IMG/VR virus record: IMGVR_UViG_3300025896_003791
Coordinates: 1 to 29,483 of that record
DNA length: 29,483 nt
DNA from: a virus
Strand: one strand, 5' to 3'
In this document: positions 3,121 to 29,483 of the stretch, piece by piece
Numbering within the stretch: position 1 is the stretch's first letter
Layout: each line of letters starts with the position of its first letter
Made by a program: the position numbers and the translations under genes
The notes under the pieces: generated by a model
Databases searched by the model: none
Seen by the model: the letters and a program-made list of their open reading frames with translations, nothing else
Told to the model about the DNA's origin: nothing

Positions 3121-3137
3121 TTGAACAAGGGGGGATA

Positions 3138-3410
3138 TCAGGACTCCCAGGTGCCTACAGGGCTCCCATCGCTATCCCACTCAACAATTAATTTGGCGGG
3201 AAAGTTAAGGCGGGTTTCTTTCAATATTTCTATTACTCGTAGGCACTCAACCCATCGCCTGACCTCGGCTGAAGGCTCAAAAGTGATGTCGAAAGAATTT
3301 CCATTCAATGTGGTCAGAACGTATTTTTGTCGGCCAAGTCGATGCCCGGGTTCATCTTTAACTGTGTCGACGAGATATGTACCGGGCGGCAATCGTTTCA
3401 ACTTACTCAT
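3138..3410 (-). CDS. Small minus-strand protein (90 aa) inserted between HNH and terminase
   Basis: A longer minus-strand frame continues to 4052, but the part beyond 3410 lies opposite the terminase genes and is a shadow. The ATG at 3410 has a GGAGAT ribosome-binding site and gives a sensible globular sequence (MSKLKRLPPGTYLVDTVKDE, later RRWVECLRVIEILKETRLNF). The region is richer in A/T than its neighbours. No plus-strand gene competes for it. No family is recognised. Its start and the small-terminase start are only 15 bases apart and face opposite ways. It is probably a moron or late insertion. Confidence 0.6.
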   Translation of the reverse strand: MSKLKRLPPGTYLVDTVKDEPGHRLGRQKYVLTTLNGNSFDITFEPSAEVRRWVECLRVIEILKETRLNFPAKLIVEWDSDGSPVGTWES

Positions 3411-3425
3411 GGAAATCTCCGAGCT

Positions 3426-3887: not shown

Positions 3888-3903
3888 CCCAAAGGGACAC
3901 AGG

Positions 3904-5610: not shown

Positions 5611-5614
5611 CGTC

Positions 5615-7111
5615 ATGGGTATTTTCAATTTCTTTGACCGCTTCAGAGCTTCCAGGATTGGAGTCCAAAGTGATCGCTCACCCTGGGGAGACTTTTACTT
5701 TGAGCCAGTCTCGGCTCGAAGCATCTCCGGCATGCGTGTCTCGGCCGATTCGGCCATGCGCCTGGCGGCGGTCTACGCTTGCGTGCGCATTCTCTCGGAG
5801 ACCATGGCGTCGCTCCCCCTGGTGGTCTACCGACCTCGCAAGGACGGTGGCAAGGACCGGGTGACAGACCACTGGCTCTACCAGTTGCTGGGCAAACGGC
5901 CCAACCGTTACCAGAACCCATTCGAGTGGCGCGAAATGCTGCAGGGTCATCTGGCCTTGAGGGGTAATGCCTTCTGTCAGATCCTGGCCAACACCCGGGG
6001 AGAGATCACCGAGCTGATCCCGATTCACCCTGACCGGGTGCGCATGGAGTTGCTCCCATCGGGCGATTACAGATACCGCATCCGGGATCAGGCAGGCTCC
6101 GAGATCGTCCTACCTCGTGGGGAGGTCTGGCATCTGAGGGGCCTGTCTTCGGACGGGCTGATTGGCTTGAGCCCCATTGAGCTCTCGCGAGAAAGCCTGG
6201 GTATGGCGCTGGCCGCGCAGGACTACGGGGCTCGGTTCTTCTCCAACGATGCTAAACCCACAGGGGGCTGGATCGAGTTCCCAGGCAACTTCAAGGACCC
6301 GGAGGCCAAGCGGGTGTTTCGGGAGTCCTATCAGGCGGCACAGTCTGGCTCGAACCGGGGCAAGGTCCTGGTGCTCGAGAACGGCATGAAGTTTCACGAG
6401 GTGGGCGTCACGAACAAGGACGCCCAGTTCCTGGAGCTGCGCAAATTCCAGATCACGGACATCGCCCGATTGTTCAGAGTGCCGCCACACATGATTGCGG
6501 ATCTGGACCGGGCAACGTTTTCCAACATCGAGCAGCAAAGCCTGGAATTCGTCATGCACACCATGACGCCCTGGGCAGAGCGCTGGGAAGCATCCATCGA
6601 ATCTGACCTACTCCCAGATGGAGACGCCCTGGAGATCGAGTTTGACTTTGCCAATCTGATGCGAGGGGATGCGGCCAGCCGCTCGGCGTACTACCAAAGC
6701 GGCATCCAGAACGGCTGGCTCACCCGCAACGAGGCCCGCATCTCGGAAAACCTCAACCCGATCGCAGGGCTCGATCAACCGCTGCGGCCGCTGAACATGG
6801 TGGAAGAAGAGGATGCAGAGGATGCGGAAATCGAATCTCAGGATGCCGACACCGATGACAGTCCTGAATCAGACCAGCAATTGAGCCTGCGCCTGCGAAA
6901 GCTGGTTGAGTCCAACGCCCAGAGACTGGCCCGTCGCATCTGCAAAAAAGGTGCTCTGGGCACCAACGAAATCAACCTGATTGCCCAGACCTTCAGCCTG
7001 CCTCCATCGGCAGTAGAGGACTGGGCGCAGGGGGCTCCATCACTCGAGGATGAACCGGCGCTGTTCCGGTCCCTCACTCAATTGGGTATTCACACAGGAA
7101 AAGACACATGA
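5615..7111 (+). CDS. Portal protein, HK97 family
   Basis: 498 aa. The core has the family's typical segments: AVYACVRILSETMASLPLVV near residue 60, then WREMLQGHLALRGNAF, GLIGLSPI, and FRVPPHMIADLDRATFSNIE with EQQSLEFV following. The C terminus carries a strongly acidic stretch (about residues 397-425) that may be a flexible tail facing the capsid interior. The start lies 4 bases after the terminase stop with little Shine-Dalgarno, so translation is probably coupled. The dodecameric portal forms the DNA channel at the capsid vertex. Confidence 0.96.
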   Translation: MGIFNFFDRFRASRIGVQSDRSPWGDFYFEPVSARSISGMRVSADSAMRLAAVYACVRILSETMASLPLVVYRPRKDGGKDRVTDHWLYQLLGKRPNRYQNPFEWREMLQGHLALRGNAFCQILANTRGEITELIPIHPDRVRMELLPSGDYRYRIRDQAGSEIVLPRGEVWHLRGLSSDGLIGLSPIELSRESLGMALAAQDYGARFFSNDAKPTGGWIEFPGNFKDPEAKRVFRESYQAAQSGSNRGKVLVLENGMKFHEVGVTNKDAQFLELRKFQITDIARLFRVPPHMIADLDRATFSNIEQQSLEFVMHTMTPWAERWEASIESDLLPDGDALEIEFDFANLMRGDAASRSAYYQSGIQNGWLTRNEARISENLNPIAGLDQPLRPLNMVEEEDAEDAEIESQDADTDDSPESDQQLSLRLRKLVESNAQRLARRICKKGALGTNEINLIAQTFSLPPSAVEDWAQGAPSLEDEPALFRSLTQLGIHTGKDT

Positions 7112-8049
7112 ACAGACAACTTCTGCTCTCCGAATTTTTGACCACCCCGTGGGCCCTGATGCCCGAGCGGCTGCAGGCCATGGCCGGGGTCTTGACCCGC
7201 TGGTCGGCGGGCGAGCCTCCAACTGATGAGGCCATGTTCCAGATCCAGTCGGAGCGGGTGCTGCGCGATACCCGCAAACAGATGGCTGCAGCCAATGCGG
7301 GCTCTGGCATTGCCGTGCTGCCTCTGTACGGCGTGGTCACCCAGCGGGGCAACATGGTCGATGACATCTCCGGACCCGGCAGCACCAGCACCCAGCAATT
7401 CACCTCGGCCTTGCGCCAGGTCCTGGCCGACGACACGGTGGGCCAGATTCTGATCGACATCGACAGCCCCGGTGGCAGCGTGTATGGCGTTGCCGAACTC
7501 GCCTCGGAGATCGTCAAGGCCCGAGCCCAGAAACCCGTGGTGGCCGTGGCCAACAGCCTGTCTGCCTCGGCGGCTTACTGGATTGGCTGCTCGGCCAGTG
7601 AGTTCTACGTGACCCCTGGCGGTGAGGTGGGCTCCATTGGCGTGTGGCAGGCGCACTTTGACTATTCGAAAGCGCTGGAAGAAGAGGGCGTCAAAACCAC
7701 CCTGGTCTCGGCTGGCAAGTTCAAGGTCGAGGGCAACCCTTATGTGCCGCTCGACCCTGAGGCTCAGGCCTTCATGCAGTCTCGTGTGGACGACTACTAC
7801 AACGCCTTCATCCAGGCTGTGGCTGTTGGCCGGGGCGTGTCGGTCGACGATGTCCGAAACGGCATGGGCGAAGGCCGGGTGCTCGGAGCTGATGCTGCCT
7901 TGGCGCAACGCATGGTCGATGGCATCGCGTCCTTTGACGACGTTCTGGCCCGCATGCAGGCCAAGGTCACAGGCAAGGCCGTTCGCAGTCAGCCTCAGAA
8001 AAGCCATTCCCGACTGAAACAGGCGCGAGACGCTCTCGCACTGGTTTGA
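7108..8049 (+). CDS. Prohead maturation protease, S49 (SppA-like) family
   Basis: 313 aa. The ClpP/crotonase-type core includes IDIDSPGGSVYGV (about 116-128) and NSLSASAAYWIG (149-160), where the Ser aligned with the SppA nucleophile is residue 154. AGKFK (202-206) supplies the catalytic Lys. EVGSIGV lies between them. The gene overlaps the portal stop by ATGA and sits directly before the capsid gene, the normal place for a protease that cleaves the capsid delta domain. The last 40 residues are basic and may be a scaffold or capsid-binding tail. Confidence 0.94.
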   Translation: MNRQLLLSEFLTTPWALMPERLQAMAGVLTRWSAGEPPTDEAMFQIQSERVLRDTRKQMAAANAGSGIAVLPLYGVVTQRGNMVDDISGPGSTSTQQFTSALRQVLADDTVGQILIDIDSPGGSVYGVAELASEIVKARAQKPVVAVANSLSASAAYWIGCSASEFYVTPGGEVGSIGVWQAHFDYSKALEEEGVKTTLVSAGKFKVEGNPYVPLDPEAQAFMQSRVDDYYNAFIQAVAVGRGVSVDDVRNGMGEGRVLGADAALAQRMVDGIASFDDVLARMQAKVTGKAVRSQPQKSHSRLKQARDALALV

Positions 8050-17173: not shown

Positions 17174-17741
17174 ACTGGGCAAGCGCTTCGGGCGACGCCA
17201 CAGGATGGCGGTGGCTTCAGCGGCTGAGGCCGTGCGCGCTTTGTGCGCCAACTTTCCCAGATTCGAGCGGGAGCTGGTGGCCTCGGGTGAGCGCGGGGTG
17301 GGCTACCGGGTGCTGGCTGGGCGTGACGCCTTGAGCCTGGACCGGTTGCACGAGCCCAGTGGCCAGCAACGCATCACTATCGCGCCGGTAGTATCTGGGG
17401 CAGGAGGTAACGGTCTGGGTCAGATCCTCTTGGGCGCTGCCTTGATCGCGGTGTCCTGGTGGAACCCGATGGGCTGGGCTGCAGCGGGCACTTTCCTGTC
17501 CCAGGCCACTTTGTATTCGGTGGGCACATCCATGATTTTGGGAGGTGTGGCCCAGATGATTGCTCCAACGGCCAAGGCGCAGGATCCGTCCGAGCGACCT
17601 GAGAACCAGCCCAGTTATGTCTTCAACGGGGCGGTCAACACCACGGCGCAGGGTCATCCCGTACCCGTGGGTTACGGCCGCCTCATCGTCGGTTCGGCCG
17701 TGATCAGCGCGGGAATTGATGTGGACGAGATCGCAGTATGA
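17148..17741 (+). CDS. Tail assembly protein, lambda gpI-like
   Basis: 197 aa. The N-terminal region (TILLLGELGKRFGRRHRMAV) is the ubiquitin-like fold of the lambda tail assembly I family. A Gly/Ala-rich hydrophobic middle (about residues 85-145) and a C-terminal segment YVFNGAVNTTAQGHPVPVGY with GRLIVGS follow, the same order as in lambda gpI. It is required for tail-tip assembly with K, L and J. The start lies inside the gpK gene and the stop overlaps the J start by ATGA. Confidence 0.93.
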   Translation: MVTILLLGELGKRFGRRHRMAVASAAEAVRALCANFPRFERELVASGERGVGYRVLAGRDALSLDRLHEPSGQQRITIAPVVSGAGGNGLGQILLGAALIAVSWWNPMGWAAAGTFLSQATLYSVGTSMILGGVAQMIAPTAKAQDPSERPENQPSYVFNGAVNTTAQGHPVPVGYGRLIVGSAVISAGIDVDEIAV

Positions 17742-20700
17742 ACACCCCTGAGTCTGGATTGATCATTGGCGCAGGCGGTGGCGGCAAGGGTGGAGGCGGC
17801 AGCGCCCGTGTGGCGCAAGAAGCGCCGGACAGCCTGCGCTCCAAGGCCTACGCCCGGGTGGTGGATCTGGTCTGCGAAGGTGAGATCGAAGGGTTGGCTG
17901 CTGGCCTGCACTCGGTGTACCTCGATGACACCCCGATCCAGAATCCCGATGGGAGCTACAACTTCACGGGGGTCACGCTCGAAACCCGACCCGGCACCCA
18001 GCAGCAAAGCTACGTCCCCGGCTTTTCTTCGGTAGAAAACGAGGTGGCCGTGGGCGTGGAGTGCAAGGCCAACCAGCCGGTGGTGCGAACCATCAACGAC
18101 CCTGATGTGGATGCCGTGCGCATCAAGGTCAGCATCCCAACCCTGACGCTCCAAGACACCACGAACGGAGACCTCAACGGAACCTCTGTCAGCTATGCGA
18201 TCGACGTGCAGGCGCGCGGAGCCGGGTATGTGCAGGTTCTGGCCGACACGGTGTCCGGCAAGACCACCTCACGCTACCAGCGCAGTTACTACATCCCTTT
18301 GACTGGCACCGGTCCCTGGGATGTGCGCCTGCGCCGCATCACTGCCGATTCGACCCAGACCAGCCTACAGAACAAGACGTTTCTGGAGTCCTACACCGAG
18401 GTCATCGAGAGCAAGCTGCGCTACCCCAACAGCGCCCTGATGGCACTGCGGGTGGATGCCTCTCAGTTCACCTCAATTCCTCGGCGCAGCTATGACCTCA
18501 AACTCCTGCGTGTTCGGATCCCCTCGAACTACTTTCCCGAGACCCGGTCGTACACCGGGGTTTGGGACGGGACCTTCAAGGTGGCCTGGACGGACAACCC
18601 AGCCTGGTGCTTTTATGACCTGGTGACAAATACCCGCTACGGACTGGGCAGTTTCATTCCCGAGTCGCAAGTGGACAAGTGGGCGCTGTACCGGGTGGCC
18701 CGCTACTGTGACGAGCTTGTGCCGAATGGCCTGGGCGGCTATGAGCCGCGCTTCACCTGCAACCTGTACCTGCAAAGCCGCGAGCAGGCCTACAAGGTGG
18801 TGCAAGACATGGCTTCGATCTTTCGGGGCATGGCTTATTGGTCCGGCGGTGCCATCACGGTCACGCAGGATGCGCCCCAGGATCCTGTCTACCAATTCAC
18901 GGCTGCCAATGTCCTGGGTGGCGAGTTCGCCTACCAAGGATCGTCCGCCAAGGCTAGGCACACCGTGGCTCTGGTCAGTTGGGTGGATCCTGATGATTTC
19001 TACCGCCAGAAGGTGGAATACGTCGAGGACATAGCGGGCATTGCACGCTATGGTGTGGTGCAGGCCGATGTGGTGGCCATGGGCTGCACCTCTCGTGGCC
19101 AGGCCAACCGGGTGGGCAAGTGGCTGCTGTACTCCGAGCAGTCTGAATCGGAAATCATCACTTTCCGCACGGGGCTGGAAGGCGCTGTTGTTCGTCCCGG
19201 CGATGTCATCAAGGTTGCAGACAGCAGCCGGGGTGGCCTGCGCTTGGGGGGACGCATCGTTGCGGCAACCACGGTAAGCGTCACGCTGGATCAGGACCTT
19301 CCCGCCGGATCTTGGCGCATCTCTGTGCTGCTGCCCACGGGAGCGGTGGAGGAACGCCAAGTCGGATCCCTGTCTGGCCGCACAGTCGGTGTGACCAGCG
19401 CATTCTCTACGGCACCTCAGGTGGGTGCCATCTGGGTGCTGGCCTCCACCCAAGTGGAGACGCAACTGTTCAGGGTGGTGCAGATCGCGGAGAGCGAACC
19501 AGGCATCCATGAGGTCACGGCACTGGCACACAACCCGAGCAAGTACGATGCCATCGAGCGGGGGCTGGCACTGCAGCCGCGCGACATCACGGTGCTTTCA
19601 ACTACGCCGGTGGCCCCTACGGGTCTCACGGTCACTGAGAGTCTTTACCGGGTTAAGGATCAGGCGCTGGTGCTCATTCAGGTGGGCTGGGAGCAGGTCT
19701 TCGGTGCTTTGGAGTACCAGGTGGGCTACCGGGTCAATGGTGGCAATACCATCACCTTGCCCCGCGTCTCCAGCACCTATCTGGAGATTCGTAACGCAGA
19801 GGCCGGGGACTATGTGTTCACCGTGCGGGCCGTAGGGGTGTCCGGCAAGCTTGGGGCTTCGGCCACGCTGAGTCAGGCCATCCTGGGCAAGCTGCAGCCG
19901 CCCGATGATGTGCAGGACTTTTTTGTCCTGCGCCGCACGACCGATTTGATGCTCAGTTGGAGCGCGAACACCGATGCCGACCTGGCCGGGTACGAGGTTC
20001 GCGTTGGCACGGGCTGGGATGCGGGTACTCTGGTTGGGCAGACCGCTGGCACCCAGCTCGTGCATGACCAGAGTGAATCTGGCCAGTACAACTACTTCAT
20101 CCGGGCCTTCGACACCTCGGGCAAGTACAGCCAGCACGTCACCACCTTTCTGTTGACTCTGCTGGCACCTGCTGCGGTTCGACAGTTCGATGTGGTGCAG
20201 TCTGCCAACCGGCTGGAGTTTCGGTGGCTGCCCAATGCCGAGCCCGAGGTGGTTGCCTATGAGCTGCGCGAAGGCACGGCCTGGGACACCTCGATCTTCA
20301 TTGCCGAGGTCAAGTCCAGCAGCTTCACGCTGCCCTCGGGCTTTGATGGTGAGCGCAATTTCTGGATCAAGGCGATCGCATCGCCTGGCATCTACTCTAA
20401 CGATGCCACCTTCGTCTCGACTGTTGTAGCGCAGCCTCAGAATGCCAACCTACTGGTCACCATCGATGCGCAGGCCACCCGGTTTCCCGGGGTGAAGCAT
20501 TTCGCATCGGTGGAGTCGGTCAACAGCTTGGACGTGCTACGCATGGACAGTGGCGTGGCGCAGTCTGAGTATCTGTTCGAGGTGAACCTGCCCACCAGCT
20601 ATCGGGCACAGAACACATTACTGGCCAGTATCGGAGCCACTTTGGACGACCGGGAGACTTGGTCAACGGCGAACTATGTCTGGAGCGGCAATGCGGCCAA

Positions 20701-21247
20701 ACGGCAGTGGACCTATGACGGCGCTCTCAAAAGCATCGAGGCCCGCTTCCAGATGGCGCGCGAAGACACGTTGCAGGCGGGTGAGCTGTATGGCTGGCGT
20801 CTCAATGGGGCACTGGCTGGGTATGGCAACCCCGCGAGCAGTGAAGCCGTTGGCGTGAGCTATGGCGACGGGCGCTACGGCAGCGGGGTACTCATCAAGG
20901 ACACAACACGGGTCTCCTGGGGTGTGAATATTCCGGGGGTGTTCCATGTGAGCTTTTGGTTCATCCCGAACCAGATCACCACATCGGTCATCTGGACAGC
21001 TACTGGGGCCGCAGTGAGCTTGCTTGTCGGGTTCGATGCGGCGGCAGGCAGCTTCTTTCTGGAAGACCACCTGTTCAACCGAATCGTGGTGCCATACCCC
21101 TTGAACGTGAGCGATCGAGTTTGCATTGGCGTGTGTCAGACGGCCACCGAGCGCAGGCTCTTTGTCGGAAAGATGGGCGCAGAGGTTCAAAGCGCAAGCA
21201 GCCCACTGCTTCCCACAGCCGGTTACACGGCACTCAAGCTGTACTGA
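17738..21247 (+). CDS. Central tail-tip / host specificity protein, lambda gpJ-like
   Basis: 1169 aa, close to lambda gpJ in length. It starts with a Gly-rich segment, then DSLRSKAYARVVDLVCEGEI, the standard beginning of J homologues. The hub domains occupy about residues 30-600 (VRIPSNYFP, WDGTFKVAWTDNP, WCFYDLVTNTRYGLG). Three fibronectin-III-like modules follow at about 620-710, 720-805 and 806-900. The C-terminal 150 residues (RYGSGVLI, VSFWFIPNQ, LFVGKMG) read as a LamG/concanavalin-type jelly roll that could bind surface glycans. The protein anchors the central fibre and contacts the receptor. The LamG-like end is inferred. Confidence 0.94.
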   Translation: MNTPESGLIIGAGGGGKGGGGSARVAQEAPDSLRSKAYARVVDLVCEGEIEGLAAGLHSVYLDDTPIQNPDGSYNFTGVTLETRPGTQQQSYVPGFSSVENEVAVGVECKANQPVVRTINDPDVDAVRIKVSIPTLTLQDTTNGDLNGTSVSYAIDVQARGAGYVQVLADTVSGKTTSRYQRSYYIPLTGTGPWDVRLRRITADSTQTSLQNKTFLESYTEVIESKLRYPNSALMALRVDASQFTSIPRRSYDLKLLRVRIPSNYFPETRSYTGVWDGTFKVAWTDNPAWCFYDLVTNTRYGLGSFIPESQVDKWALYRVARYCDELVPNGLGGYEPRFTCNLYLQSREQAYKVVQDMASIFRGMAYWSGGAITVTQDAPQDPVYQFTAANVLGGEFAYQGSSAKARHTVALVSWVDPDDFYRQKVEYVEDIAGIARYGVVQADVVAMGCTSRGQANRVGKWLLYSEQSESEIITFRTGLEGAVVRPGDVIKVADSSRGGLRLGGRIVAATTVSVTLDQDLPAGSWRISVLLPTGAVEERQVGSLSGRTVGVTSAFSTAPQVGAIWVLASTQVETQLFRVVQIAESEPGIHEVTALAHNPSKYDAIERGLALQPRDITVLSTTPVAPTGLTVTESLYRVKDQALVLIQVGWEQVFGALEYQVGYRVNGGNTITLPRVSSTYLEIRNAEAGDYVFTVRAVGVSGKLGASATLSQAILGKLQPPDDVQDFFVLRRTTDLMLSWSANTDADLAGYEVRVGTGWDAGTLVGQTAGTQLVHDQSESGQYNYFIRAFDTSGKYSQHVTTFLLTLLAPAAVRQFDVVQSANRLEFRWLPNAEPEVVAYELREGTAWDTSIFIAEVKSSSFTLPSGFDGERNFWIKAIASPGIYSNDATFVSTVVAQPQNANLLVTIDAQATRFPGVKHFASVESVNSLDVLRMDSGVAQSEYLFEVNLPTSYRAQNTLLASIGATLDDRETWSTANYVWSGNAAKRQWTYDGALKSIEARFQMAREDTLQAGELYGWRLNGALAGYGNPASSEAVGVSYGDGRYGSGVLIKDTTRVSWGVNIPGVFHVSFWFIPNQITTSVIWTATGAAVSLLVGFDAAAGSFFLEDHLFNRIVVPYPLNVSDRVCIGVCQTATERRLFVGKMGAEVQSASSPLLPTAGYTALKLY

Positions 21248-21279
21248 ACCTAAACCTGAATCCTCATCACCACCACGCC

Positions 21280-21316
21280 GGGCGTTGCATCGAAAGGTGC
21301 AGCGCCCGTTTTGTTT
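21280..21316 (+). terminator. Rho-independent-type terminator after J
   Basis: GGGCGTTGCA (21280-21289) pairs with TGCAGCGCCC (21298-21307), 10 pairs with one G-T, around an 8-base loop, followed by GTTTTGTTT. It lies between the J stop and the next fibre gene's start. Confidence 0.7.
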
Positions 21317-21334
21317 AAAGAAACGGAATACTCC

Positions 21335-21781
21335 ATGATTGAAGAAGGCATGAGCATCAAGGGCTCGATCACGCTGCTGCTGGCCAAGCCCACGGGCGAA
21401 GTCGAGGTGATCCACAAGGACAACATCATCGTCAACGGCGGCTTCGACTTCGTGGCCGATGCGATTGGCAATTCGGCCAGTCGCCCTGGGGTTATGGGAT
21501 GGATCGCAGTGGGTACCGGCACCACTGCTGCTGCTGCCACGCAGACTGCGATGGTCACCGAGATCAAGCGCAACGCGGCCACCTACGCCCACACTGCGGG
21601 CACCAAGGTGTTCACCTTCACAGCCAGCTACGCAGCCGGTGACGCTACTGGGGCGCTCACGGAAGCAGGTGTCTTCAATGCCGCTTCGGCGGGCATCATG
21701 TTTGACCGAGTGGTCTTCCCTGTGGTGAACAAGGGTGTGGACGACAGCCTGACTGCCGTCTTCACCTTCACCATGAGCTGA
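21335..21781 (+). CDS. Tail-fibre-associated structural protein (148 aa)
   Basis: A TTG at 21311 would extend it by 8 residues but lies inside the terminator T run, so the ATG at 21335 is used; ATG 21350 is a second option. The sequence SIKGSITLLLAKPTGEVEVI, then KDNIIVNGGFDFVADAIGN and GWIAVGTGTTAAA, resembles a small family of phage tail-fibre or baseplate-type proteins found downstream of J in betaproteobacterial prophages. It is beta-rich with no membrane segment. It is probably an adaptor or accessory fibre protein. Confidence 0.75.
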   Translation: MIEEGMSIKGSITLLLAKPTGEVEVIHKDNIIVNGGFDFVADAIGNSASRPGVMGWIAVGTGTTAAAATQTAMVTEIKRNAATYAHTAGTKVFTFTASYAAGDATGALTEAGVFNAASAGIMFDRVVFPVVNKGVDDSLTAVFTFTMS

Positions 21782-21794
21782 TCGGGCATTTGAG

Positions 21795-22985
21795 ATGGCC
21801 GAGACCGTCAACGTTTCCAGTTCTCCAGGGGCGAACTACACCTGGACGTCCGGCAAGTTCGCCTGGAGCAGCGCCACGGCAGGCAAGAACTGGTCATCGG
21901 CTTACCCTGCTGTGTATGCCCTGAGCGTGGCCACGGATCTGAGCTTTGCCGAGTTGGTCCAGAAACTGGGCATCAAGCGCAGTTCCGAAAACCTGACGTT
22001 CTCGGAAAAGCCCAGCCGCACTGTGGCGCTCAACAAGTTCGAGACCCTGAACTTCGTGGAGACCTACACCGACCTGATCGCCTTTGTCCTGCGCTTCGTC
22101 GAGTCGCTGACCTTCTCGGAAAAGTACGCCCGCTCTGGCAGCAAGGCCGTGTTCGAGGTGTTTCAGGTGGGGGAGGGATTGGCGCGGCAGCTGGTATGGC
22201 GCAAATACGAGACGCTGGCGCTGGCCGAGACCTACACCGACCTCATTGCGTTCATCCTGAGGGTCTCCGAGAGTTTCAGCCTGGCCGAGAAACCCGCCAA
22301 GGGGATGACCAAGGCTCAGGCTGAGAGCTTTGGCATGAGCGACACGCTGGCCAAGTCTCAGGTCAAACGCATCTCGGAAGCGGTCAGCTTTGCCGAAGCG
22401 CTGGGGCGTACCGTCGCATATCGGCGGTCCATCAATGAAGGCTTTGCGATTGGCGAGGCACTCAAGCGTGCCCAGACGCTCAAACTCAGTGAAGTCTTTG
22501 GCTTGGCCGAGCAGTACCGTCGCCGGGCCAACGGTGTCATTAGCGACATGATCGTTGCCAGCACCGAGATCACCGAGCAGGACTTCATGGACATCCTGGA
22601 GTCCGGTCATCCCCCCGGGTACTCCAACTTCCGGGATTTCATCCAGGGCGACTACACCTACCAGCGGGCGCTTTTCAGGGCGATCCTGACTTCCAGCAAT
22701 GCCGACCGTGGCTACATCGATGGCTTGAGGGTGACGGTGGACGTTCCCGATGTCTTTGATCGGGGCACGGCGCAGGTGGTCACAGCCGCCAATGGCGTGA
22801 CCGTGGTGTTCACCAGGCAGTTCCGCGTGGCACCTGAAGTCACGCTGACCTTCAAAGGCGGCACCACGGTATCCGTCCCCCGAATCCTGGGTTCAGTCAC
22901 CACCACCGGCTTTACCGCTGTCCTTGAAAACACCTCTGGTACGCGAGTGACCGGGGCCATCTCCTGGGTCGCACAGGGTTACTGA
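21795..22985 (+). CDS. Repeat-containing tail fibre protein (396 aa)
   Basis: Residues about 45-245 consist of degenerate 18-19-residue units with the pattern E-(S/T)-L-x-(F/L)-x-E followed by a basic stretch. Two successive 56-residue super-repeats (81-136 and 137-192) share KxETL and ETYTDLIAF. This reads as a fibre shaft. The C-terminal 80 residues (FDRGTAQVVTAANGVTVVF, FRVAPEVTLTFKGG, ending AISWVAQGY) form a beta-sandwich typical of tail-fibre tips that contact carbohydrate. It sits 13 bases after the previous gene. The tip function is inferred. Confidence 0.8.
   Translation: MAETVNVSSSPGANYTWTSGKFAWSSATAGKNWSSAYPAVYALSVATDLSFAELVQKLGIKRSSENLTFSEKPSRTVALNKFETLNFVETYTDLIAFVLRFVESLTFSEKYARSGSKAVFEVFQVGEGLARQLVWRKYETLALAETYTDLIAFILRVSESFSLAEKPAKGMTKAQAESFGMSDTLAKSQVKRISEAVSFAEALGRTVAYRRSINEGFAIGEALKRAQTLKLSEVFGLAEQYRRRANGVISDMIVASTEITEQDFMDILESGHPPGYSNFRDFIQGDYTYQRALFRAILTSSNADRGYIDGLRVTVDVPDVFDRGTAQVVTAANGVTVVFTRQFRVAPEVTLTFKGGTTVSVPRILGSVTTTGFTAVLENTSGTRVTGAISWVAQGY
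22059..22260 (+). repeat. Direct repeat within fibre gene (56-codon period)
   Basis: The ETYTDLIAF coding stretch at 22059 recurs with near-identical DNA at 22227, exactly 168 bases later. This marks a recent duplication within an older, diverged protein repeat. Confidence 0.75.
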
Positions 22986-22996
22986 AGAGAAACCAA

Positions 22997-23923
22997 ATGC
23001 AGAACTACACCGAAATCCCATCCTCCACGACGCTCTCGGATTCCTTGTCCCAGATCCTGAACAACGACAAGACGGCGCTCTCACTCTCCAGTGGCACTTC
23101 CTTTCCGACGGTGAACCTACAGCAAGGCATGCCGTGTTTCAGGACCGATGAGCAAAAGCTCTACGTCCTCACCGTGGTCAGCCCCGCCACTTGGAAGATG
23201 GTCATTGACCTGTCGGCCACAGTGGGCAAGGTGGCCAATGCAGACCTGCTCGATGGCATTGACTCGACAGGCTTCGCGCTGGCTGGGCATAACCACGATG
23301 CTGCCTATGCCGCGCTGGGACACAACCACAACGCTGCGTACCTGGGCATCACGGCCAAGGCAGCCGACGCCGATAAGCTCGATGGCTACGACTCCACAGC
23401 CTTTGTGCGCTCGGTCAACGGCTATGGGCCGGATGTGAATGGAAATTCCACCGTGCCGATCGACCTGTCCAGCCGCGTGGCCAAATCCGGAGACACCATG
23501 TCCGGCACGCTGACGGTGCCACGCCTGCAGATCTCCAGTACGGCCAATTACCTGGACATGGTGGACCAGGACTGGGGTACTCGCTTCTTGCACCACAACC
23601 AGGGACTCATGGGATTTCTGAAATCCGATGGCAACTGGGACATGTACATGAACAACAGTGGCCAGATGTGGACCGCCAATTACGGCTGGCTGCACGACTA
23701 TTTTTTCAGTGCAGTCAGCAACTGCTTTCGGAGTTCAAACCCGAGCGCAGGTTGGCAAGGAGCACCGAATTGCACGGCCAATACCGGTGACTACTACAAC
23801 TGCGGCGACTTTGCCCCCTATTCCGGCATCTACATGCTTCGACTCGTTGACGGTGGTTCAACGATCAGCTTTGGATCACAAACCACTCGCTACAACTGCA
23901 ATTGCGATTGCAACTGCTGCTGA
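22997..23923 (+). CDS. Tail fibre protein with Cys-rich C-terminal tail (NCNCDCNCC)
   Basis: 308 aa. The N terminus (MQNYTEIPSSTTLSDSLSQI) is an attachment-type segment. The middle has two shaft repeats, NADLLDGIDSTGF and DADKLDGYDSTAF, separated by GHNHDAAYAALGHNHNAAY, as in many phage tail fibres. AKSGDTMSGTLTVP (162-175) is a standard fibre collar motif. The C-terminal domain from about 176 contains Cys 243, 259 and 269. The last nine residues (300-308) alternate Asn/Asp with Cys and end in Cys-Cys. The stop codon overlaps the next gene's GGAGG ribosome-binding site, linking it to the maturase operon. The tail is probably metal-binding or the substrate of downstream modifying enzymes. Confidence 0.88.
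   Translation: MQNYTEIPSSTTLSDSLSQILNNDKTALSLSSGTSFPTVNLQQGMPCFRTDEQKLYVLTVVSPATWKMVIDLSATVGKVANADLLDGIDSTGFALAGHNHDAAYAALGHNHNAAYLGITAKAADADKLDGYDSTAFVRSVNGYGPDVNGNSTVPIDLSSRVAKSGDTMSGTLTVPRLQISSTANYLDMVDQDWGTRFLHHNQGLMGFLKSDGNWDMYMNNSGQMWTANYGWLHDYFFSAVSNCFRSSNPSAGWQGAPNCTANTGDYYNCGDFAPYSGIYMLRLVDGGSTISFGSQTTRYNCNCDCNCC
23894..23920 (+). other. Candidate modification core: NCNCDCNCC at fibre C terminus
   Basis: Nine codons (AAC TGC AAT TGC GAT TGC AAC TGC TGC) end directly at the stop. Five cysteines in nine residues, alternating with Asn/Asp, are unlike the rest of the fibre and resemble a RiPP core peptide. It lies upstream of a radical SAM/SPASM gene in the same transcript. Role inferred from context. 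Confidence 0.6.
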
Positions 23924-23932
23924 GGAGGGAAT

Positions 23933-24790
23933 ATGAAGCTCTATATCGGCAACAAAAATCCCCCGTTCGCACTGGATGTGGGGTTGGATGGATCAAGTCT
24001 TTCCTTCTGTGTTCGCGCCATCATGCAACGTGAGTTTATAGGTGATCCAGCGAAAGACCACGCTAATGGTGGCAAGTTTTTTGACCAATCATTGATCTCC
24101 GAATGGCGCGGTGACTTCGGGGTATTTGGGGAACCGATTTGTCAACGGACCTTGGATCTGAACTCGCTGCGGCAGCATGCAGAGTTTTCGGATCACGCCA
24201 GTTTCATGCTTTATGCACCAGTCGGCGTCATGGAGCGGTACGGAACGCCAGCGGGGTTTTTCCAGCAGACGTCCAATCTTTATGCGGCTACTTTGGCGTC
24301 CAAGATGGATGCACAGGCTTATCACGCAACGGTACTGCAGACTCATCCGTTGGGACACATTCTGGTGCCATTCAAGTCCTCTCCGCTTGAGGACTGGACT
24401 CTCGGATTCAACGTGTTTTCTCCCGAGTTGATCAAAGCCGGGCGGGACATCGAGGTTGTCCCAGCGATCACGCTGGCGTTGGTGCGCGAGGAAACGCTGC
24501 CTGTTGTGCGGTTCGTAGGGGGCAGCTCGGTCAATGCCGAGGTCAATTCCGAGGTCTTCATTGAATTCAGGTTGGAGACGCCAGATGGTGTGCCCATCAT
24601 GGACAGGGATGCCGAGGTGTACTTGGAGGCTACTTCGGGGTATCTGGTAAACCGACGTATCAAAACTGTGGGTGGGCAGGGTGCCACCAGTTTCCGACCT
24701 GACGGTATGACTTCGGGAGACAGCTCGAAGATCAAGGTCGGCTTCAAGTATTTCTCCGGTACCGATGACCTGATGGTGAATGTCCTATGA
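23933..24790 (+). CDS. Unknown protein of the fibre-modification operon (285 aa)
   Basis: The ATG follows GAGGAGG, which overlaps the fibre stop. Residues 1 to about 185 are not recognised: a beta-rich start (MKLYIGNKNPPFALDVGLDG), then helical and aromatic stretches with several His and only two Cys (26 and 70). Residues about 190-285 look like an Ig-like/Big_1-type beta-sandwich (VNSEVFIEFRLETPDGVPI, EVYLEATSGYLVNRR, ending IKVGFKYFSGTDDLMV). No signal peptide or membrane segment is seen. It could be a fibre chaperone, a substrate adaptor for the enzymes, or a further virion protein. It overlaps the next gene by ATGA. Confidence 0.7.
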   Translation: MKLYIGNKNPPFALDVGLDGSSLSFCVRAIMQREFIGDPAKDHANGGKFFDQSLISEWRGDFGVFGEPICQRTLDLNSLRQHAEFSDHASFMLYAPVGVMERYGTPAGFFQQTSNLYAATLASKMDAQAYHATVLQTHPLGHILVPFKSSPLEDWTLGFNVFSPELIKAGRDIEVVPAITLALVREETLPVVRFVGGSSVNAEVNSEVFIEFRLETPDGVPIMDRDAEVYLEATSGYLVNRRIKTVGGQGATSFRPDGMTSGDSSKIKVGFKYFSGTDDLMVNVL

Positions 24791-25413
24791 GGCTTGAGCT
24801 GTTTCCGACCATGGCAGGTATCTGGGCGTTGAACCTGGGCACCGAATTTGACCGATCCCTTTGCGTGGATCTGGTCCAAGTCCATTCGGACATGAATACC
24901 GGCGGTGAGATCTGGGATCGCAAGCCACACGACATATTCGATGGATCAGTAAGCCTTGCCTCCATGTTGGCCAGCGAGGCACTGCTTGTTCTGCAGCGGG
25001 ACTTCATTGGTCCGAAGGGTCGAATCATCCATCTGCAAGGCCGTGAGGTGGTTCGCACCTGTGGCGTTGAAATCATGCCGCATTCGGATGAAGACGAATG
25101 CGACTTGCAGGCGGTGTACTTCCCAAATGGCCCTGAGCTCGATCCAGGGCAGAGTCTTCACTCGCAAGTCAATCAATATGGACCGAATGCGTTTGCCATC
25201 TGCAATCCGGACTGGCGCTCATCTGGCTTTGGCAAACGCCTGATGCCCTGGGAGCAGAACGCCAAGTACTGGATCAAGCCCCACAGGGGCTTGCTGGTGG
25301 CATTTGACGCTCGGGCTGTTCATTTCCAAAAGCCGTATCCCGGCGACTCTCTCGTGGATGCACCGTTTGTGCAGGTGCTTTTGAACATCAAGGTGGAAAG
25401 ACTCAATGGCTAA
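24787..25413 (+). CDS. Probable 2-oxoglutarate/Fe(II)-type oxygenase (208 aa)
   Basis: The protein has the layout of a small double-stranded beta-helix oxygenase. A facial-triad candidate is H99-x-D101 in EIMPHSDEDECDLQAVYFPN, with a distal His 179 in GLLVAFDARAVHFQKPYPG; the loop CNPDWR (139-144) lies between them. The usual Arg that binds 2-oxoglutarate, normally about ten residues after the distal His, is not obvious in DAPFVQVLLNIKVE, so cosubstrate binding may differ. It would hydroxylate or otherwise oxidise a side chain. It overlaps both neighbours (ATGA and 8 bases), so it is made together with them. Other cupin-type functions remain possible. Confidence 0.62.
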   Translation: MRLELFPTMAGIWALNLGTEFDRSLCVDLVQVHSDMNTGGEIWDRKPHDIFDGSVSLASMLASEALLVLQRDFIGPKGRIIHLQGREVVRTCGVEIMPHSDEDECDLQAVYFPNGPELDPGQSLHSQVNQYGPNAFAICNPDWRSSGFGKRLMPWEQNAKYWIKPHRGLLVAFDARAVHFQKPYPGDSLVDAPFVQVLLNIKVERLNG

Positions 25414-26776
25414 ATTTCTGATCACTGCTTTGGATCCGCGCACAGAAGCCGTGGTGCCATTGCTATACGACAACATGGACTCGTCCCTAACGGACCTTCA
25501 AGGACGCTCTGTGGTGCAGACGGTGGACCCTTCGCTGCAGGCTACCCCGCTGGTGGCCCCAGTGACTTCCAGAGAAACACCGCTTGGGAAAATCTCTCCA
25601 CGCATCCTGAAGATTTCGCTGGGCCTGTCCTGCAACTACGCCTGCGAGTATTGCTCCCAGCGCTTCGTGGCGCGCAACGACGAGACCAACCCTGCGGATG
25701 TGACGGGCTTCATGGATTCGCTGGACAGCTGGGTTCTCTCGCCACCCGAGGCGATTGAGTTCTGGGGCGGGGAGCCACTGGTGTACATCAAGACCCTGCG
25801 GCCTTTGGCCGAGGCTCTGCGCTTGAAATTTCCGCAGGCCAGGGTTTCTGTGATCACCAATGGCTCCTTGCTGAACCCCGAAGTCAATCAGTGGCTTGAT
25901 GAGCTGGGGTTCACAGTCAGCATCTCCCATGATGGGCATGGCCAATCAGTGCGTGGTCCTGACCCCTTGGCTGACCCACGGTCCCGTCAAGCCATCCTGG
26001 CTCTTTACCAGCGCCTGGCACCTAAAGGGCGATTCAGCTTTAACGCCATGATCAACCGCTCCAACCAGTCTCGGGCTGATGTACAGGCATTCTTTGAGAA
26101 CCTCACAGGGGACTCGAAAGTCATGATTGGGGAAGGTGGGTTTGTGGATGCCTACGACGATGGAGGCCAAGCTCTATCCCTTCAACCTGAGGAATTTCAT
26201 GCATTCCGGCGATTGGCATTTCATGAAATCCGGCATGGCAAGGCAGGGCGCATCTCCAGCGTGCGGGATCGGACGATGTCCTTTGTCAATTCCATGAGGT
26301 TCAAACGCCCAGCTTCGAGCCTGGGACAAAAGTGCGGTATGGACCGTTCAGACTCCATTGCTGTGGACCTCAAAGGTAATGTCCTGACCTGCCAGAACGT
26401 CAGTGCGACTGCTGTAGCGCCAAATGGTGAGGCTCACCGCATTGGGCACATCAGTCAGATGCAGGAAGTAGCGCTCAAGACGGCAACGCACTGGTCTCAC
26501 CGACAGGAATGCCCTGGCTGCCCTGTGCTCCAGGTCTGCAAGGGTGCGTGCATGTTTCTGCAGGGGCCGCTGTGGGACGTGTCCTGCGAAAACGCCTATT
26601 CGGATGCACTGCCCATCTTTGCCGCCGGGGTTGAATTCCTCACCGGACTGGTTCCCGTTCACATTGAAGGTGAACTGCGCGATGAGCGCAAGGACATCTT
26701 CGGATTTTCTGAGCAGGTGAAACCATCTCGGGATAGACCATCCAGGAGCTTTCCGATCGCGGTCGTTGCAGCCTGA
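25406..26776 (+). CDS. Radical SAM / SPASM peptide-modifying enzyme
   Basis: 456 aa. The radical SAM cluster motif is C76-NYA-C80-EY-C83. The GGEP motif is at 121-124, and the SAM-binding strand VITNGSLL at about 149-156. The C-terminal SPASM domain carries Cys 310, 329 (in DLKGNVLTC), 369, 372, 378, 382 and 394, the seven-Cys pattern that holds two auxiliary [4Fe-4S] clusters (ECPGCPVLQVCKGACMF). This is the architecture of RiPP maturases and anaerobic sulfatase-type maturases. No clear leader-binding RRE domain is seen in the N-terminal 65 residues. It overlaps the oxygenase gene by 8 bases and is followed by a terminator. Radical SAM/SPASM identity is firm; the substrate is inferred to be the Cys-rich fibre tail. 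Confidence 0.93.
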   Translation: MAKFLITALDPRTEAVVPLLYDNMDSSLTDLQGRSVVQTVDPSLQATPLVAPVTSRETPLGKISPRILKISLGLSCNYACEYCSQRFVARNDETNPADVTGFMDSLDSWVLSPPEAIEFWGGEPLVYIKTLRPLAEALRLKFPQARVSVITNGSLLNPEVNQWLDELGFTVSISHDGHGQSVRGPDPLADPRSRQAILALYQRLAPKGRFSFNAMINRSNQSRADVQAFFENLTGDSKVMIGEGGFVDAYDDGGQALSLQPEEFHAFRRLAFHEIRHGKAGRISSVRDRTMSFVNSMRFKRPASSLGQKCGMDRSDSIAVDLKGNVLTCQNVSATAVAPNGEAHRIGHISQMQEVALKTATHWSHRQECPGCPVLQVCKGACMFLQGPLWDVSCENAYSDALPIFAAGVEFLTGLVPVHIEGELRDERKDIFGFSEQVKPSRDRPSRSFPIAVVAA

Positions 26777-26800: not shown

Positions 26801-26832
26801 GCCGCCATGGTTCGCCCTGGCGGCTTTTTTTT
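26801..26832 (+). terminator. Terminator-like hairpin between radical SAM gene and holin
   Basis: GCCGCCA (26801-26807) pairs with TGGCGGC (26818-26824) around a 10-base loop and is followed by eight T residues. It closes the fibre-modification operon. The holin ribosome-binding site (GGAGAA) begins directly after the T run, the same layout as ahead of the capsid gene. Confidence 0.75.
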
Positions 26833-26842: not shown

Positions 26843-27226
26843 ATGCCAGAACCTACAAGCAGTGGGGTCGCTGGAGCAGCGGTGGCCTACAAAGCATTTG
26901 GTGGAACCGCCGCAGCGGCTGCCAGTGGAGCCACCCTGGCTGCAGTGGTGGTCATGTTGATGACGCCACCTCGCAACAAACGGGAGTGGGCAGTTGGGCT
27001 GATCAGCACCGTGGTGTCCAGCATCGGTGGTGGTGCGATGACCGTCGAGCACTTTGGACTACATCACTGGGCTTTTTCAACGGTGGGGCTCTGTGCTCTT
27101 GGTGGACTGATCTTTGCCTGTGGTCTGCCAGGATGGGCGATGGTGCGCTGGACATTTGCTTTCATCGAAAAGCGCCGTGACGACTCCATTGATGAGGTGG
27201 CCAAGGACGTGAAGGAGCTTATATGA
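26843..27226 (+). CDS. Putative holin
   Basis: 127 aa from the ATG at 26843 (GGAGAA ribosome-binding site); the in-frame upstream extension lies in the terminator and is rejected. Three hydrophobic segments are visible at about residues 21-41, 49-67 and 76-102, followed by a charged C-terminal tail (EKRRDDSIDEVAKDVKEL). Its place directly before a lysin and Rz/Rz1 supports a holin that makes holes in the inner membrane to time lysis. The final codons overlap the lysin start by 4 bases. Confidence 0.82.
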   Translation: MPEPTSSGVAGAAVAYKAFGGTAAAAASGATLAAVVVMLMTPPRNKREWAVGLISTVVSSIGGGAMTVEHFGLHHWAFSTVGLCALGGLIFACGLPGWAMVRWTFAFIEKRRDDSIDEVAKDVKELI

Positions 27227-27687
27227 ATCCAAGTGAATTCATCATGCGGCTCACAACGGCCGCCGTTGCATCAGCTAAGGCTACAGGCGTTCCAGCCAGT
27301 ATCACCATTGCTCAGGCAGCACTTGAGTCAGGGTGGGGGGAGTCTGCGCTGGCCAAGACCGGCAACAACCTCTTCGGCATCAAGGCGGACAGCCTCTGGC
27401 GCGGTCAGACCCTCACCATGAACACCAAGGAGTTCATCAAGGGGCAGTGGGTGGTGGTGCCTGCTTTGTGGCGCAAGTATCCGAGCTGGCAAGCCAGTGT
27501 GGATGACCACGCTGCATTTCTTAAGCGTAACCCGCGCTACAAGATTTGCTTCACTTGCACCACGGCCCAGGCATTTGCCAAGGCGCTGGCACAGGCAGGC
27601 TATGCCACCGATCCGGCTTATTCGGACAAGGTCATTGGTCTGATCAAGCAGCACAACCTGCTGGCCTTGGATGGAGGTGCTCCGTGA
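27223..27687 (+). CDS. Endolysin, glucosaminidase (GH73 / FlgJ-like) domain
   Basis: 154 aa, a single catalytic domain without signal peptide. SITIAQAALESGWGESALA holds the catalytic Glu (residue 35), followed by TGNNLFGIKA, both typical of GH73 N-acetylglucosaminidases, and then FRKYPSW-type and YATDPAYSDKVIGLI segments seen in FlgJ-type enzymes. It cleaves peptidoglycan glycan strands after holin release. It starts by ATGA overlap with the holin gene. Confidence 0.93.
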   Translation: MNPSEFIMRLTTAAVASAKATGVPASITIAQAALESGWGESALAKTGNNLFGIKADSLWRGQTLTMNTKEFIKGQWVVVPALWRKYPSWQASVDDHAAFLKRNPRYKICFTCTTAQAFAKALAQAGYATDPAYSDKVIGLIKQHNLLALDGGAP

Positions 27688-28261: not shown

Positions 28262-28741
28262 CTAGTCTTTCTTGTTTTTTTCGATCAAGGCAAAAAAGTT
28301 TTTCATCGCGCTAGCGTGTGCAAACCCTTCATGGATCTTGTCATCTAGGAGCTCTCTTGCAGACGGGCCGTTCTTGCAAGTCCCGCCTAATTTGATCAAT
28401 GCATCAACCATTTCTGTAACTTTGCTGTGTCTGTATAGATGTGAGTATTTGGCAATGTCCAGGGGTGTATCCCCTTCATTGTCTGGAATATTTGGATCTG
28501 CGCCGCGTTCAAGTAAAAATATGGCTAAGGCATAGTATGTTTCGTCGACAGCCATAAACAGAGCTGTGCGCCCATCTTCATCGCGGAAATTGATGTCGTG
28601 CCCTGATTCAAGCAAGTAATGAACTAACCGACCATTGCCATCGCTCGCAGCTATCACGAGCGCGTCTGGTGCGTCAAGATATGGATACTGAGATAGATCT
28701 AGTGGTTCTTCGGGATATTCTTGATCGGTGGCTTCGTTCAT
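28262..28741 (-). CDS. Ankyrin-repeat protein (159 aa)
   Basis: Residues about 23-120 hold roughly three ankyrin units, seen in DAPDALVIAASDGNGRLVHY, INFRDEDGRTALFMAV and PNIPDNEGDTPLDIAK. The protein is acidic and cytoplasmic, with no signal peptide. Ankyrin repeats mediate protein-protein contact; in prophage cargo they often occur in toxin/immunity or stress proteins, but no partner can be named. It is the last gene of a three-gene minus-strand operon and overlaps the upstream gene by ATGA. The region is lower in G+C than the phage structural genes. Confidence 0.85.
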   Translation of the reverse strand: MNEATDQEYPEEPLDLSQYPYLDAPDALVIAASDGNGRLVHYLLESGHDINFRDEDGRTALFMAVDETYYALAIFLLERGADPNIPDNEGDTPLDIAKYSHLYRHSKVTEMVDALIKLGGTCKNGPSARELLDDKIHEGFAHASAMKNFFALIEKNKKD

Positions 28742-29130
28742 TTGTCATCCGATTTTTTCATCACACTTTCATCCCACCCATCAAGAAAGCTTGTAAGTCT
28801 CTCCCGATTGGCACTGCGGGGCAGTCCTAACGTGACTCTTTCTAGGCGTATCACTCGATCATTTCGATTTATTTCGGCCTTTTCACGGGAGAGCTTGAAA
28901 CGGGTTTGAAGATCAGGGTCCGAAAAGAACGCGATGCACTCACCTTTGTTTGCAAAATGATCTAACTCGTCCTGAGTGATGCAAAGGTAGACGTTTTTCT
29001 GGCATGTCGAGCAATGCTTCACGCCTGCTTGTTCGGTGTTAGTAAGTTCGAACCAATTCTTCGGGCACTCAAACTCCATTTCACAGTTTAAGAACTGATG
29101 CTTAGGAGCGCTAGGTGTGGACGCAGGCAT
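28738..29130 (-). CDS. Cys-rich hypothetical protein, possible zinc-binding (130 aa)
   Basis: Cysteines at 16, 22, 40, 43, 50 and 65 sit in the settings FECPKNWFELT, VKHCSTCQKNVYLC and NKGECIAFF, which suggest a zinc-ribbon-type fold in the first 70 residues. The C-terminal half is charged. I have seen this pattern in unnamed proteins of Burkholderiales but know no function. It starts 2 bases after the upstream gene's stop with little Shine-Dalgarno, and overlaps the ankyrin gene, so the three are likely translated as a unit. Confidence 0.75.
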   Translation of the reverse strand: MPASTPSAPKHQFLNCEMEFECPKNWFELTNTEQAGVKHCSTCQKNVYLCITQDELDHFANKGECIAFFSDPDLQTRFKLSREKAEINRNDRVIRLERVTLGLPRSANRERLTSFLDGWDESVMKKSDDK

Positions 29131-29132
29131 GG

Positions 29133-29483
29133 TTAGAGGCTCTTTCTTGACTTGTTTGAAACGTTGCCACTCCCGCGTTGCATGACGATGCTGCCTGTAT
29201 AGATCGCATCGGCCTCGAAATACCGTGTTTGTGTGACGTTAACGGAGTCGCCATTGCCGATTGCAAGAAAGTAATTTCCAGGGCAAAGGTTCCCGAAATT
29301 CACTGCACCGCCATTGCTTCTTCTAGATTGAACAACTCGAGAGTTTCCTGGGTTGCCAGATCGAAGCTCCACCAAAACACCTTCACCAAAGGTTTGCAGC
29401 GTGATGTTGTACTCGGTGTTGCATGCCACTGCACTTCCCGCTAATCCAAGAAGAAGCAAAGCGGATATAAAAAACTTATTCAT
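29133..29483 (-). CDS. Small exported protein with signal peptide (116 aa)
   Basis: The ATG lies at the window edge (29483), so its ribosome-binding site and promoter are outside and an upstream start is possible. Residues 1-20 are a signal peptide (hydrophobic ALLLLGLAGSAVA, followed by CNTEY). The AVAC site is a poor lipobox, so signal peptidase I cleavage is more likely. The mature part is beta-rich, with two Cys (21 and 67 region) that could form a disulfide, and a basic C-terminal end. Family not recognised. First visible gene of the cargo operon. Confidence 0.75.
   Translation of the reverse strand: MNKFFISALLLLGLAGSAVACNTEYNITLQTFGEGVLVELRSGNPGNSRVVQSRRSNGGAVNFGNLCPGNYFLAIGNGDSVNVTQTRYFEADAIYTGSIVMQRGSGNVSNKSRKSL

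Follow-up and report, generated by a model that had tools for sequence, protein, structure and literature searches.

Two described enzyme systems come closest to the one considered here, a four-gene module at positions 22997 to 26776 of a 29,483-bp virus record (IMG/VR IMGVR_UViG_3300025896_003791, the whole of which is called the window), in which a tail fibre is followed by an accessory protein, a predicted oxygenase, and a radical S-adenosylmethionine (SAM) enzyme with a SPASM domain. QhpD forms Cys-Asp/Glu thioethers in the structural subunit QhpC, complexed with the hydroxylase QhpG (PMC7876137), and is therefore a precedent for a radical SAM enzyme and an oxygenase with a common structural substrate. 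PapB joins Cys to the β-carbon of Asp (PMC9413430). In phages, radical SAM gene cassettes lie near tail fibres in the host-recognition cluster of SAR11 phages, where they were left unexplained (PMC7029224).

The locus resembles the Qhp system in that a SPASM radical SAM enzyme and an oxygenase would act on the same structural subunit, and the QhpD model is among those that best match the window enzyme, P0004. QhpC, however, is a subunit of a cellular enzyme with a leader peptide, a leader protease, and export, and its oxygenase is a flavoprotein, whereas here a phage fibre with an Asn-Cys (NC) run at its C terminus is the proposed substrate and the oxygenase is predicted to be a 2-oxoglutarate (2OG)-Fe(II) enzyme. 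With the ranthipeptides (PapA/PapB, freyrasin type), the locus shares a repeated motif that pairs Cys with an acidic or amide residue, but the ranthipeptides have small precursors with CX3D motifs and an N-terminal leader, whereas here alternating NC ends a virion protein of 300 amino acids (aa). P0004 belongs to phrog_1802 (phage radical SAM domain-containing protein; 2e-60), which is catalogued without a function or a link to NC tails.

We propose, at a probability of about 0.78, that the genes at 22997 to 26776 together make up a module for maturing a virion protein, in which the radical SAM/SPASM enzyme and the 2OG oxygenase act on the Asn-Cys C terminus of the fibre to give a compact, covalently hardened distal tip.

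Organization of the module

The module comprises the following features.
22997..23923, plus strand: tail fibre P0001, 308 aa, the proposed substrate (phrog_8443 tail fibre, 3.8e-6; fibre-body homologues).
23723..23920, plus strand: exchangeable C-terminal module of the fibre, the last 66 residues, with additional NC dipeptides (follows the P0002 family and the radical SAM enzyme, not the fibre body).
23894..23920, plus strand: C-terminal Asn-Cys run NCNCDCNCC, residues 300 to 308 (one copy in the window, no repeat elsewhere; 0/200,000 in shuffles; found across relatives).
23933..24790, plus strand: accessory protein P0002, 285 aa (AlphaFold predicted local distance difference test [pLDDT] score of 92; family in 99/149 cassettes).
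24787..25413, plus strand: predicted 2OG-Fe(II) oxygenase P0003, 208 aa (invariant H99 and H179; PF13759 in 24/35 members; family in 87/149 cassettes).
25406..26776, plus strand: radical SAM/SPASM enzyme P0004, 456 aa, the core of the module (PF04055, 4.1e-8; TIGR04085; phrog_1802, 2e-60; invariant cluster cysteines).
26801..26832, plus strand: intrinsic terminator closing the module (GCCGCCA...TGGCGGC followed by T8; –16.9 kcal/mol, z –2.2).

A first-pass annotation of the window had described a fibre ending in NCNCDCNCC, its stop placed within the ribosome-binding site of the next gene, gene coupling by ATGA and by 8 bases, and a terminator 3' of the radical SAM gene; all of these were recovered. 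The fibre ends YNCNCDCNCC, and its TGA stop sits within the GGAGG-type ribosome-binding site of the P0002 gene (TGAGGAGGGAATATG); the P0002 and P0003 genes are coupled by ATGA at 24787 to 24790, the P0003 and P0004 genes share an 8-base overlap at 25406 to 25413, and the terminator is supported by folding. This hairpin was missed by the consensus terminator scan because the scan was limited to loops of 3 to 8 bases. The arrangement is consistent with a single transcript for the fibre, P0002, P0003, and P0004, bounded by hairpins at about 21279 and about 26801.

The Asn-Cys run of the fibre

P0001 is assigned as a phage tail fibre from its match to phrog_8443 (3.8e-6) and its position after a J-like protein. 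Shuffling of the fibre never placed (N/D-C)x4 within the last 12 residues (0/200,000), which rules out a chance origin of the run, and (N/D-C)x3 occurs in no other of the 248 open frames of the window. The nine cysteines of the fibre are preceded by Asn in six cases, by Asp in one, and by Cys in one. Among 56 representatives, the residue preceding Cys inside the runs is mostly Asn (241), followed by Asp (30) and Ala (23), and outside the runs 170 of 214 cysteines (79%) also follow Asn, against an Asn background of 8.4%. Because Asn precedes most cysteines both outside and inside the runs, the Asn-Cys dipeptide is suggested to be a unit that is recognised or chemically required.

The AAY-rich fibre end might instead be the variable repeat of a diversity-generating retroelement, with the enzymes incidental, as such repeats are AAY-rich and often lie at the ends of receptor-binding proteins. 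No template repeat, that is, a second copy within 3 mismatches, is present in the window; relatives keep the Asn and Cys instead of varying at adenines, their differences being mostly synonymous, and no reverse transcriptase is found among the identified window proteins or the annotated neighbours. We therefore reject a retroelement target, the probability of which is close to nil.

Linkage of the Asn-Cys tail and the radical SAM enzyme

Relatives were collected from four entry points: the radical SAM enzyme, a DNA pattern for NCNC[ND]C[ND]C that is blind to the enzymes, the fibre body minus its tail, and the upstream protein P0005. The radical SAM search gave more than 500 relatives among the matches listed. 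For the linkage counts, sequences were clustered at 90% identity, and radical SAM clusters with at least 4 kb upstream and NC clusters with sufficient downstream DNA were used. A gene with a strict NC run lies near the radical SAM gene in 82 of 87 radical SAM clusters, and a radical SAM gene lies near the NC-terminal open reading frame (ORF) in 43 of 46 ORF clusters found blind to the enzyme. The exceptions on the enzyme side are two loci with tails narrowly outside the strict motif (NCACACEC in L170 and CNCACCGCC in L184), one with a degenerate Cys-rich protein (L022), one in which the tail apparently lies at the contig edge (L179), and one copy from a metagenome-assembled genome (MAG; L026, 6735 to 8008), where a deletion, either real or an assembly error, has taken out both the NC tail and P0002, so that fibre and oxygenase gene are fused. 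The three exceptions on the tail side are two probably spurious antisense ORFs and L040, an 82-aa protein beside four radical SAM-like genes.

The P0005 entry point gave 34 loci with both tail and enzyme and one with neither, without a discordant case; the single locus that lacks both (L348) has a replaced fibre. Pseudomonas phage Itty13 and its relatives share the distal fibre body with the window fibre and have a chaperone-like end; no NC tail and no radical SAM enzyme was detected in phages of this type. Among 401 bacterial genomes, sampled from the family of a Comamonadaceae MAG, seven have the radical SAM enzyme. An NC tail accompanies it in five of six extended bacterial loci, once with a Hint domain, and the sixth holds a solitary divergent radical SAM gene. 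The first-pass annotation had set independent occurrence of the Cys tail and the SPASM gene against its own proposal; the survey instead found near-complete co-occurrence in both directions, and the negative controls lack both.

These counts bear on two other explanations. The enzymes could be morons inserted after the fibre gene and modifying a host peptide or surface component, with the Cys tail a separate trait; morons are common near phage tail and lysis genes, and fibres recombine especially often in their C-terminal region. The tail and the enzymes are, however, mutually predictive on many carriers and in both gene orders, and the relative with a replaced fibre lacks both, so that a moron acting on a host target is rejected as highly improbable. 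Alternatively, the run could be an unmodified or lightly modified ligand for Fe, Cu, Ni, or an Fe-S cluster that stabilizes a trimeric tip, the two enzymes tuning the ligands. Cysteines that alternate within a trimer obviously suggest a metal site, iron is coordinated at some phage fibre tips, Asn-Cys-Cys peptides bind Ni or Cu, and metal binding is compatible with modification; yet an unmodified site would not need a SPASM enzyme, whose linkage to the tail is near-complete, and metal binding alone does not explain why Asn is kept before Cys at scattered single NC dipeptides. We regard a metal-binding tip as unlikely.

Carriers, cassette variants, and exchange of the fibre end

NC tails are found on about 19 sequence groups of body (5 with looser linkage), and the carriers range from collagen-like fibres of 686 aa down to proteins of 80 to 115 aa, at times three in a row. 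In 149 cassettes, the fibre is usually followed by the P0002 family (99 loci), then the 2OG family (87 loci), and then the radical SAM enzyme; variants contain other 2OG families, a desaturase-like protein, or a second radical SAM enzyme.

Fibres with bodies (the first ~242 residues) 94 to 97% identical to that of the window fibre carry two classes of tail, which match their enzymes: the window-type tail is always accompanied by a P0002 homologue of 60 to 80% identity, and the other class (YNFNCNCNCNCDCYC type) has no close P0002 homologue at that position. Six fibres show the reverse, with bodies only 63 to 69% identical, tails 83 to 89%, P0002 75 to 81%, and radical SAM enzymes 76 to 77% identical. 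Partial correlations given the body are 0.69 for tail and P0002 and 0.49 for tail and radical SAM enzyme, with p values that are not literal, as the sequences are related. In the 18 fibres with body identity of at least 90%, tail and radical SAM identity are not significantly correlated (rho 0.23, p 0.35), since radical SAM enzymes of fair similarity accompany the second tail class as well. On the full-set correlation, the P0002 correlation, and the two-way exchange pattern, the last ~66 residues of the fibre are read as a module that moves with the enzyme genes and not with the fibre body.

Several cassettes hold further features. In the prophage-type locus L287 (8001 to 11674), the tail has a Cys-to-Arg change (NCNCDRNCGC) and the radical SAM gene is split into two frames, which may reflect joint decay or a sequencing error. 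Fatty-acid-desaturase-like proteins occur within NC cassettes at L039 (3886 to 4605; PF00487, 1.5e-10), L174, L178, L179, and L185 and are possibly a further oxidative tailoring enzyme, and weakly Asn-synthase-like proteins adjoin the cassettes of L193 (516 to 1580), L069, L087, and L146. Proteins of 67 to 82 aa with STACNCNCNCNC-type ends lie near more distant radical SAM genes in L040 (3120 to 11740, minus strand; up to four such genes), L047, L120, and L144. Erwinia and Salmonella jumbo phages (L004 to L006) likewise have Cys-repeat proteins, two radical SAM genes, and an adjacent virion structural gene, but their tails are of the CSG/CSS type rather than NC, and their radical SAM enzymes are ~30% identical over part of the domain. 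At about 3100 to 7400 in these phages stand three tandem small proteins with a common N terminus, the third ending in HYNCNGGCSWSCSGSCSHGAGNR; they are perhaps a sister system.

Self-cleaving domains behind the run

The run ends 0 to 7 residues before the stop in 47 of 56 representatives. Directly behind it, a Hint domain is present in six and an S74 chaperone in one. The Hint carriers are Achromobacter phages JWF and 2-1 and loci L099, L117, L182, L186, and L304; the domain begins at the last Cys of the run or just past it and matches PF05203 at 3e-12 in JWF, with the others weaker or read by eye. The S74 chaperone of L108 reaches 22.5 bits with PF13884, against a cut-off of 22. Known S74 and Hint (intein/hedgehog-type) domains serve trimerisation or splicing, whereas in these relatives they would unveil a modified C terminus; the window fibre differs from such fibres in having neither. 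If these domains cleave like the known ones, the mature protein would again end with the run. That two or more unrelated cleavage devices would lead to one and the same end speaks for the importance of a free NC C terminus. In JWF (L002, 5793 to 7244), where the sequence NCNCDCNCNCS precedes the Hint cysteine, Hint cleavage would leave a C-terminal thioester that a thiol or an amine could capture, and modification of the end group is conceivable.

The first-pass annotation had proposed the Cys-rich fibre end as the substrate of the enzymes. Linkage, joint movement of the tail and the enzymes, Asn-Cys enrichment, and the placement of Hint and S74 domains behind the run all support this proposal, and we hold that the tail is very probably the substrate of the radical SAM enzyme.

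Enzymes and accessory protein

P0004 carries the radical SAM motif CX3CX2C (C76, C80, and C83), which is invariant in 10 relatives, and matches PF04055 above the cut-off. Its SPASM domain scores 33.9 bits with TIGR04085 (cut-off 27), and the seven SPASM cysteines (310, 329, 369, 372, 378, 382, and 394) are all invariant in ten relatives, so the initial identification of a radical SAM/SPASM enzyme is upheld. Among named families, PapB (ranthipeptide maturase), viperin, and, third, QhpD come closest. PapB gives the best NCBIfam match (5.7e-15), at 55.4 bits against a cut-off of 340, and QhpD gives 47.4 bits against 453 (E 1.1e-12). Because the scores of all three are far under their cut-offs, P0004 is assigned to a separate family, phrog_1802. 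A search for relatives in plasmids gave no match at 1e-30. The radical SAM protein of Campylobacter phage CP220, considered as a relative, was set aside; the relationship is only weak, and few of the genes annotated around it are tail genes.

P0003 alone has no direct Pfam match, and its identity comes from the family alignment and the model. H99 and H179 are invariant in 35 relatives, D101 is present in P0003 (HxD...H iron site), and 24 of the 35 family members match the 2OG-Fe(II) oxygenase family PF13759. The AlphaFold model (pLDDT 91) matches 3bvc and prolyl hydroxylases in Foldseek (E 3e-6 to 1e-5). P0003 is thus predicted to be a 2OG-Fe(II) oxygenase with a double-stranded β-helix fold; family profile, invariant His, and predicted fold all bear out the earlier label of a probable oxygenase.

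The 285-aa gene that the first-pass annotation had listed as unknown is present, but its description can be refined: P0002 has an N-terminal domain of unknown fold and a C-terminal immunoglobulin (Ig)-like domain (AlphaFold pLDDT 92) and is no recognised enzyme. Sequence searches in Pfam, NCBIfam, PHROGs, and PDB gave no informative match; fold searches yielded Ig-like matches, and over the full length matched uncharacterised phage proteins alone. P0002 is possibly a virion accessory protein or chaperone. No PqqD-like recognition element of the kind found with ribosomally synthesized and post-translationally modified peptides (RiPPs) was detected by Pfam or NCBIfam in P0002 to P0004, although a divergent one in the N-terminal 60 residues of P0004 could escape these models.

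The strict alternation of the run, mostly across 4 to 12 Cys, would also suit a pore, in which alternate residues are inverted and (Asn-Cys)n folds as a polytheonamide-like D/L β-helix inserted into the membrane of the host; there are precedents in radical SAM epimerases and in alternating, Asn-rich β-helical peptides. SPASM domains are mostly absent from the known peptide epimerases, however, whereas all SPASM cysteines are invariant here, and most runs have 4 or 5 Cys, too short to span a membrane. An epimerised pore is thus very unlikely.

Proposed mechanism

Under the maturation-module reading, what we infer covers the occurrence of the modification, the bond type, the order of the enzymes, the role of the Ig-domain protein, and the biological function. 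The exchangeable, Asn-Cys-rich end of the fibre would be the "core," with the rest of the fibre as carrier or leader, and the fibre, Ig-domain protein, oxygenase, and radical SAM enzyme would be co-translated, as the gene coupling suggests. P0004 may bind the fibre end and abstract a hydrogen next to Asn or Asp, the Cys sulphur being captured as a thioether; this step is suggested by the SPASM family, by PapB and QhpD as the nearest named relatives, and by the Asn-Cys alphabet. We lean slightly towards a Cys thioether of some kind. Its most likely form would run from the Cys sulphur to the β-carbon of Asn or Asp, as with PapB and QhpD at Asp/Glu, but this particular bond is put forward only tentatively. 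From its fold, P0003 would most likely hydroxylate Asn or Asp side chains or another tail residue, either before or after the radical SAM enzyme, and P0002 would probably hold or escort the tip. The product would be a compact, rigid, covalently hardened distal fibre tip for adsorption or envelope contact; rigidity and adsorption are suggested by position, and a role in host recognition or envelope contact is probable.

The module is RiPP-like in shared logic, not in class membership, because the locus shows neither a separate leader peptide nor an export system. A linked ribosomal substrate with a modifiable core is found, in that the NC tail and the radical SAM enzyme co-occur both ways. A short precursor with an N-terminal leader, a leader protease, and an exporter are not: the proposed substrate is a 308-aa fibre, no protease or exporter was recognised in the cassette, and the Hint or S74 domains of some relatives work at the C-terminal side.

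Several points weigh against the proposed maturation module. The support for a modified fibre tip comes from sequence throughout, and the relatedness of the sequences means that the counts are not independent events and that nominal p values overstate certainty. Because P0004 falls so far under the PapB and QhpD cut-offs, the bond type is not readable from its family match. The 2OG enzyme is missing or replaced in some cassettes and hence not universal; no 2OG gene is annotated beside the radical SAM gene of Achromobacter phages JWF and 2-1. In L039 and L046, the tails are followed by 169 to 177 residues that are neither Hint nor S74, and L305, a solitary divergent radical SAM gene in a bacterial chromosome, has no NC tail nearby.

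Phage context

The genes of the window run in the order terminase large subunit, portal, S49 protease, major head protein, head-tail connector, lambda-type tail tube, tape measure, two minor tail proteins, tail assembly protein I, J-like tip protein, module, and endolysin. The window is therefore a fragment of a lambda-like siphophage, and P0001 may fairly be called a tail fibre of the tail tip. The features that flank the module are as follows.
17738..21247, plus strand: J-like central tail tip protein, 1169 aa, 5' of the module (PF24801, 5.7e-46; PF13550, 3e-27).
21279..21318, plus strand: terminator-like hairpin between the J gene and the fibre module (13-pair stem, then a T-rich tail; consensus match only).
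21335..21781, plus strand: small tail-fibre-family protein, 148 aa (phrog_5417, 1.6e-23; phrog_4176 "tail fiber protein," 6.5e-13).
21795..22985, plus strand: P0005, a tail protein with a C-terminal H-type-lectin-like domain, 396 aa, which often adjoins the module (PF09458, E 2.3e-4, slightly under its cut-off; homologues lie 5' of the fibre in relatives).
27223..27687, plus strand: endolysin, the first gene of the lysis region 3' of the module (phrog_3513, 3.4e-59).

At the left edge of the phage fragment lies an N6/N4 DNA methylase gene (40 to 1236; PF01555, 1.3e-25). Past the lysis region, 28262 to 29483 holds minus-strand genes without known function, one of which matches phrog_9262. Rfam and tRNA scans of the window gave no matches.

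Implications

The first-pass annotation regarded such a system as not described, and no counterexample came up in a partial literature check: among open-access papers in PubMed Central, excluding subscription journals and preprints, none was found that deals with NC tails or with virion proteins modified by radical SAM enzymes. A virion-tip maturation module exchanged together with the substrate region it acts on appears to be undescribed to date, although the enzyme superfamilies themselves are known. The isolated temperate Achromobacter phage JWF, reported to be UV-inducible (PMC3899368), has core, Hint domain, and enzyme, which makes the system open to testing.

If the proposal is true, RiPP-type radical chemistry builds parts of virions, and virion cross-linking extends past self-catalysed isopeptides. 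The phrog_1802 radical SAM genes, annotated by domain alone, would gain a function, and 2OG-oxygenase genes near phage tail genes a candidate role. The enzymes would be a new maturase family that accepts a simple Asn-Cys core on many carriers and is useful for peptide stapling. Receptor-binding tips may carry non-proteinogenic chemistry that is invisible to structure prediction. More broadly, we think it fairly likely that many tailed phages have a dedicated radical SAM and oxygenase module that acts on unrelated virion proteins with alternating Asn-Cys ends and gives them a new class of covalently cross-linked and hydroxylated tip. Phages would swap this terminal segment along with the enzymes, some lineages would expose it through self-cleavage of Hint or S74, and tail-tip chemistry would thus be an evolvable trait of host recognition.

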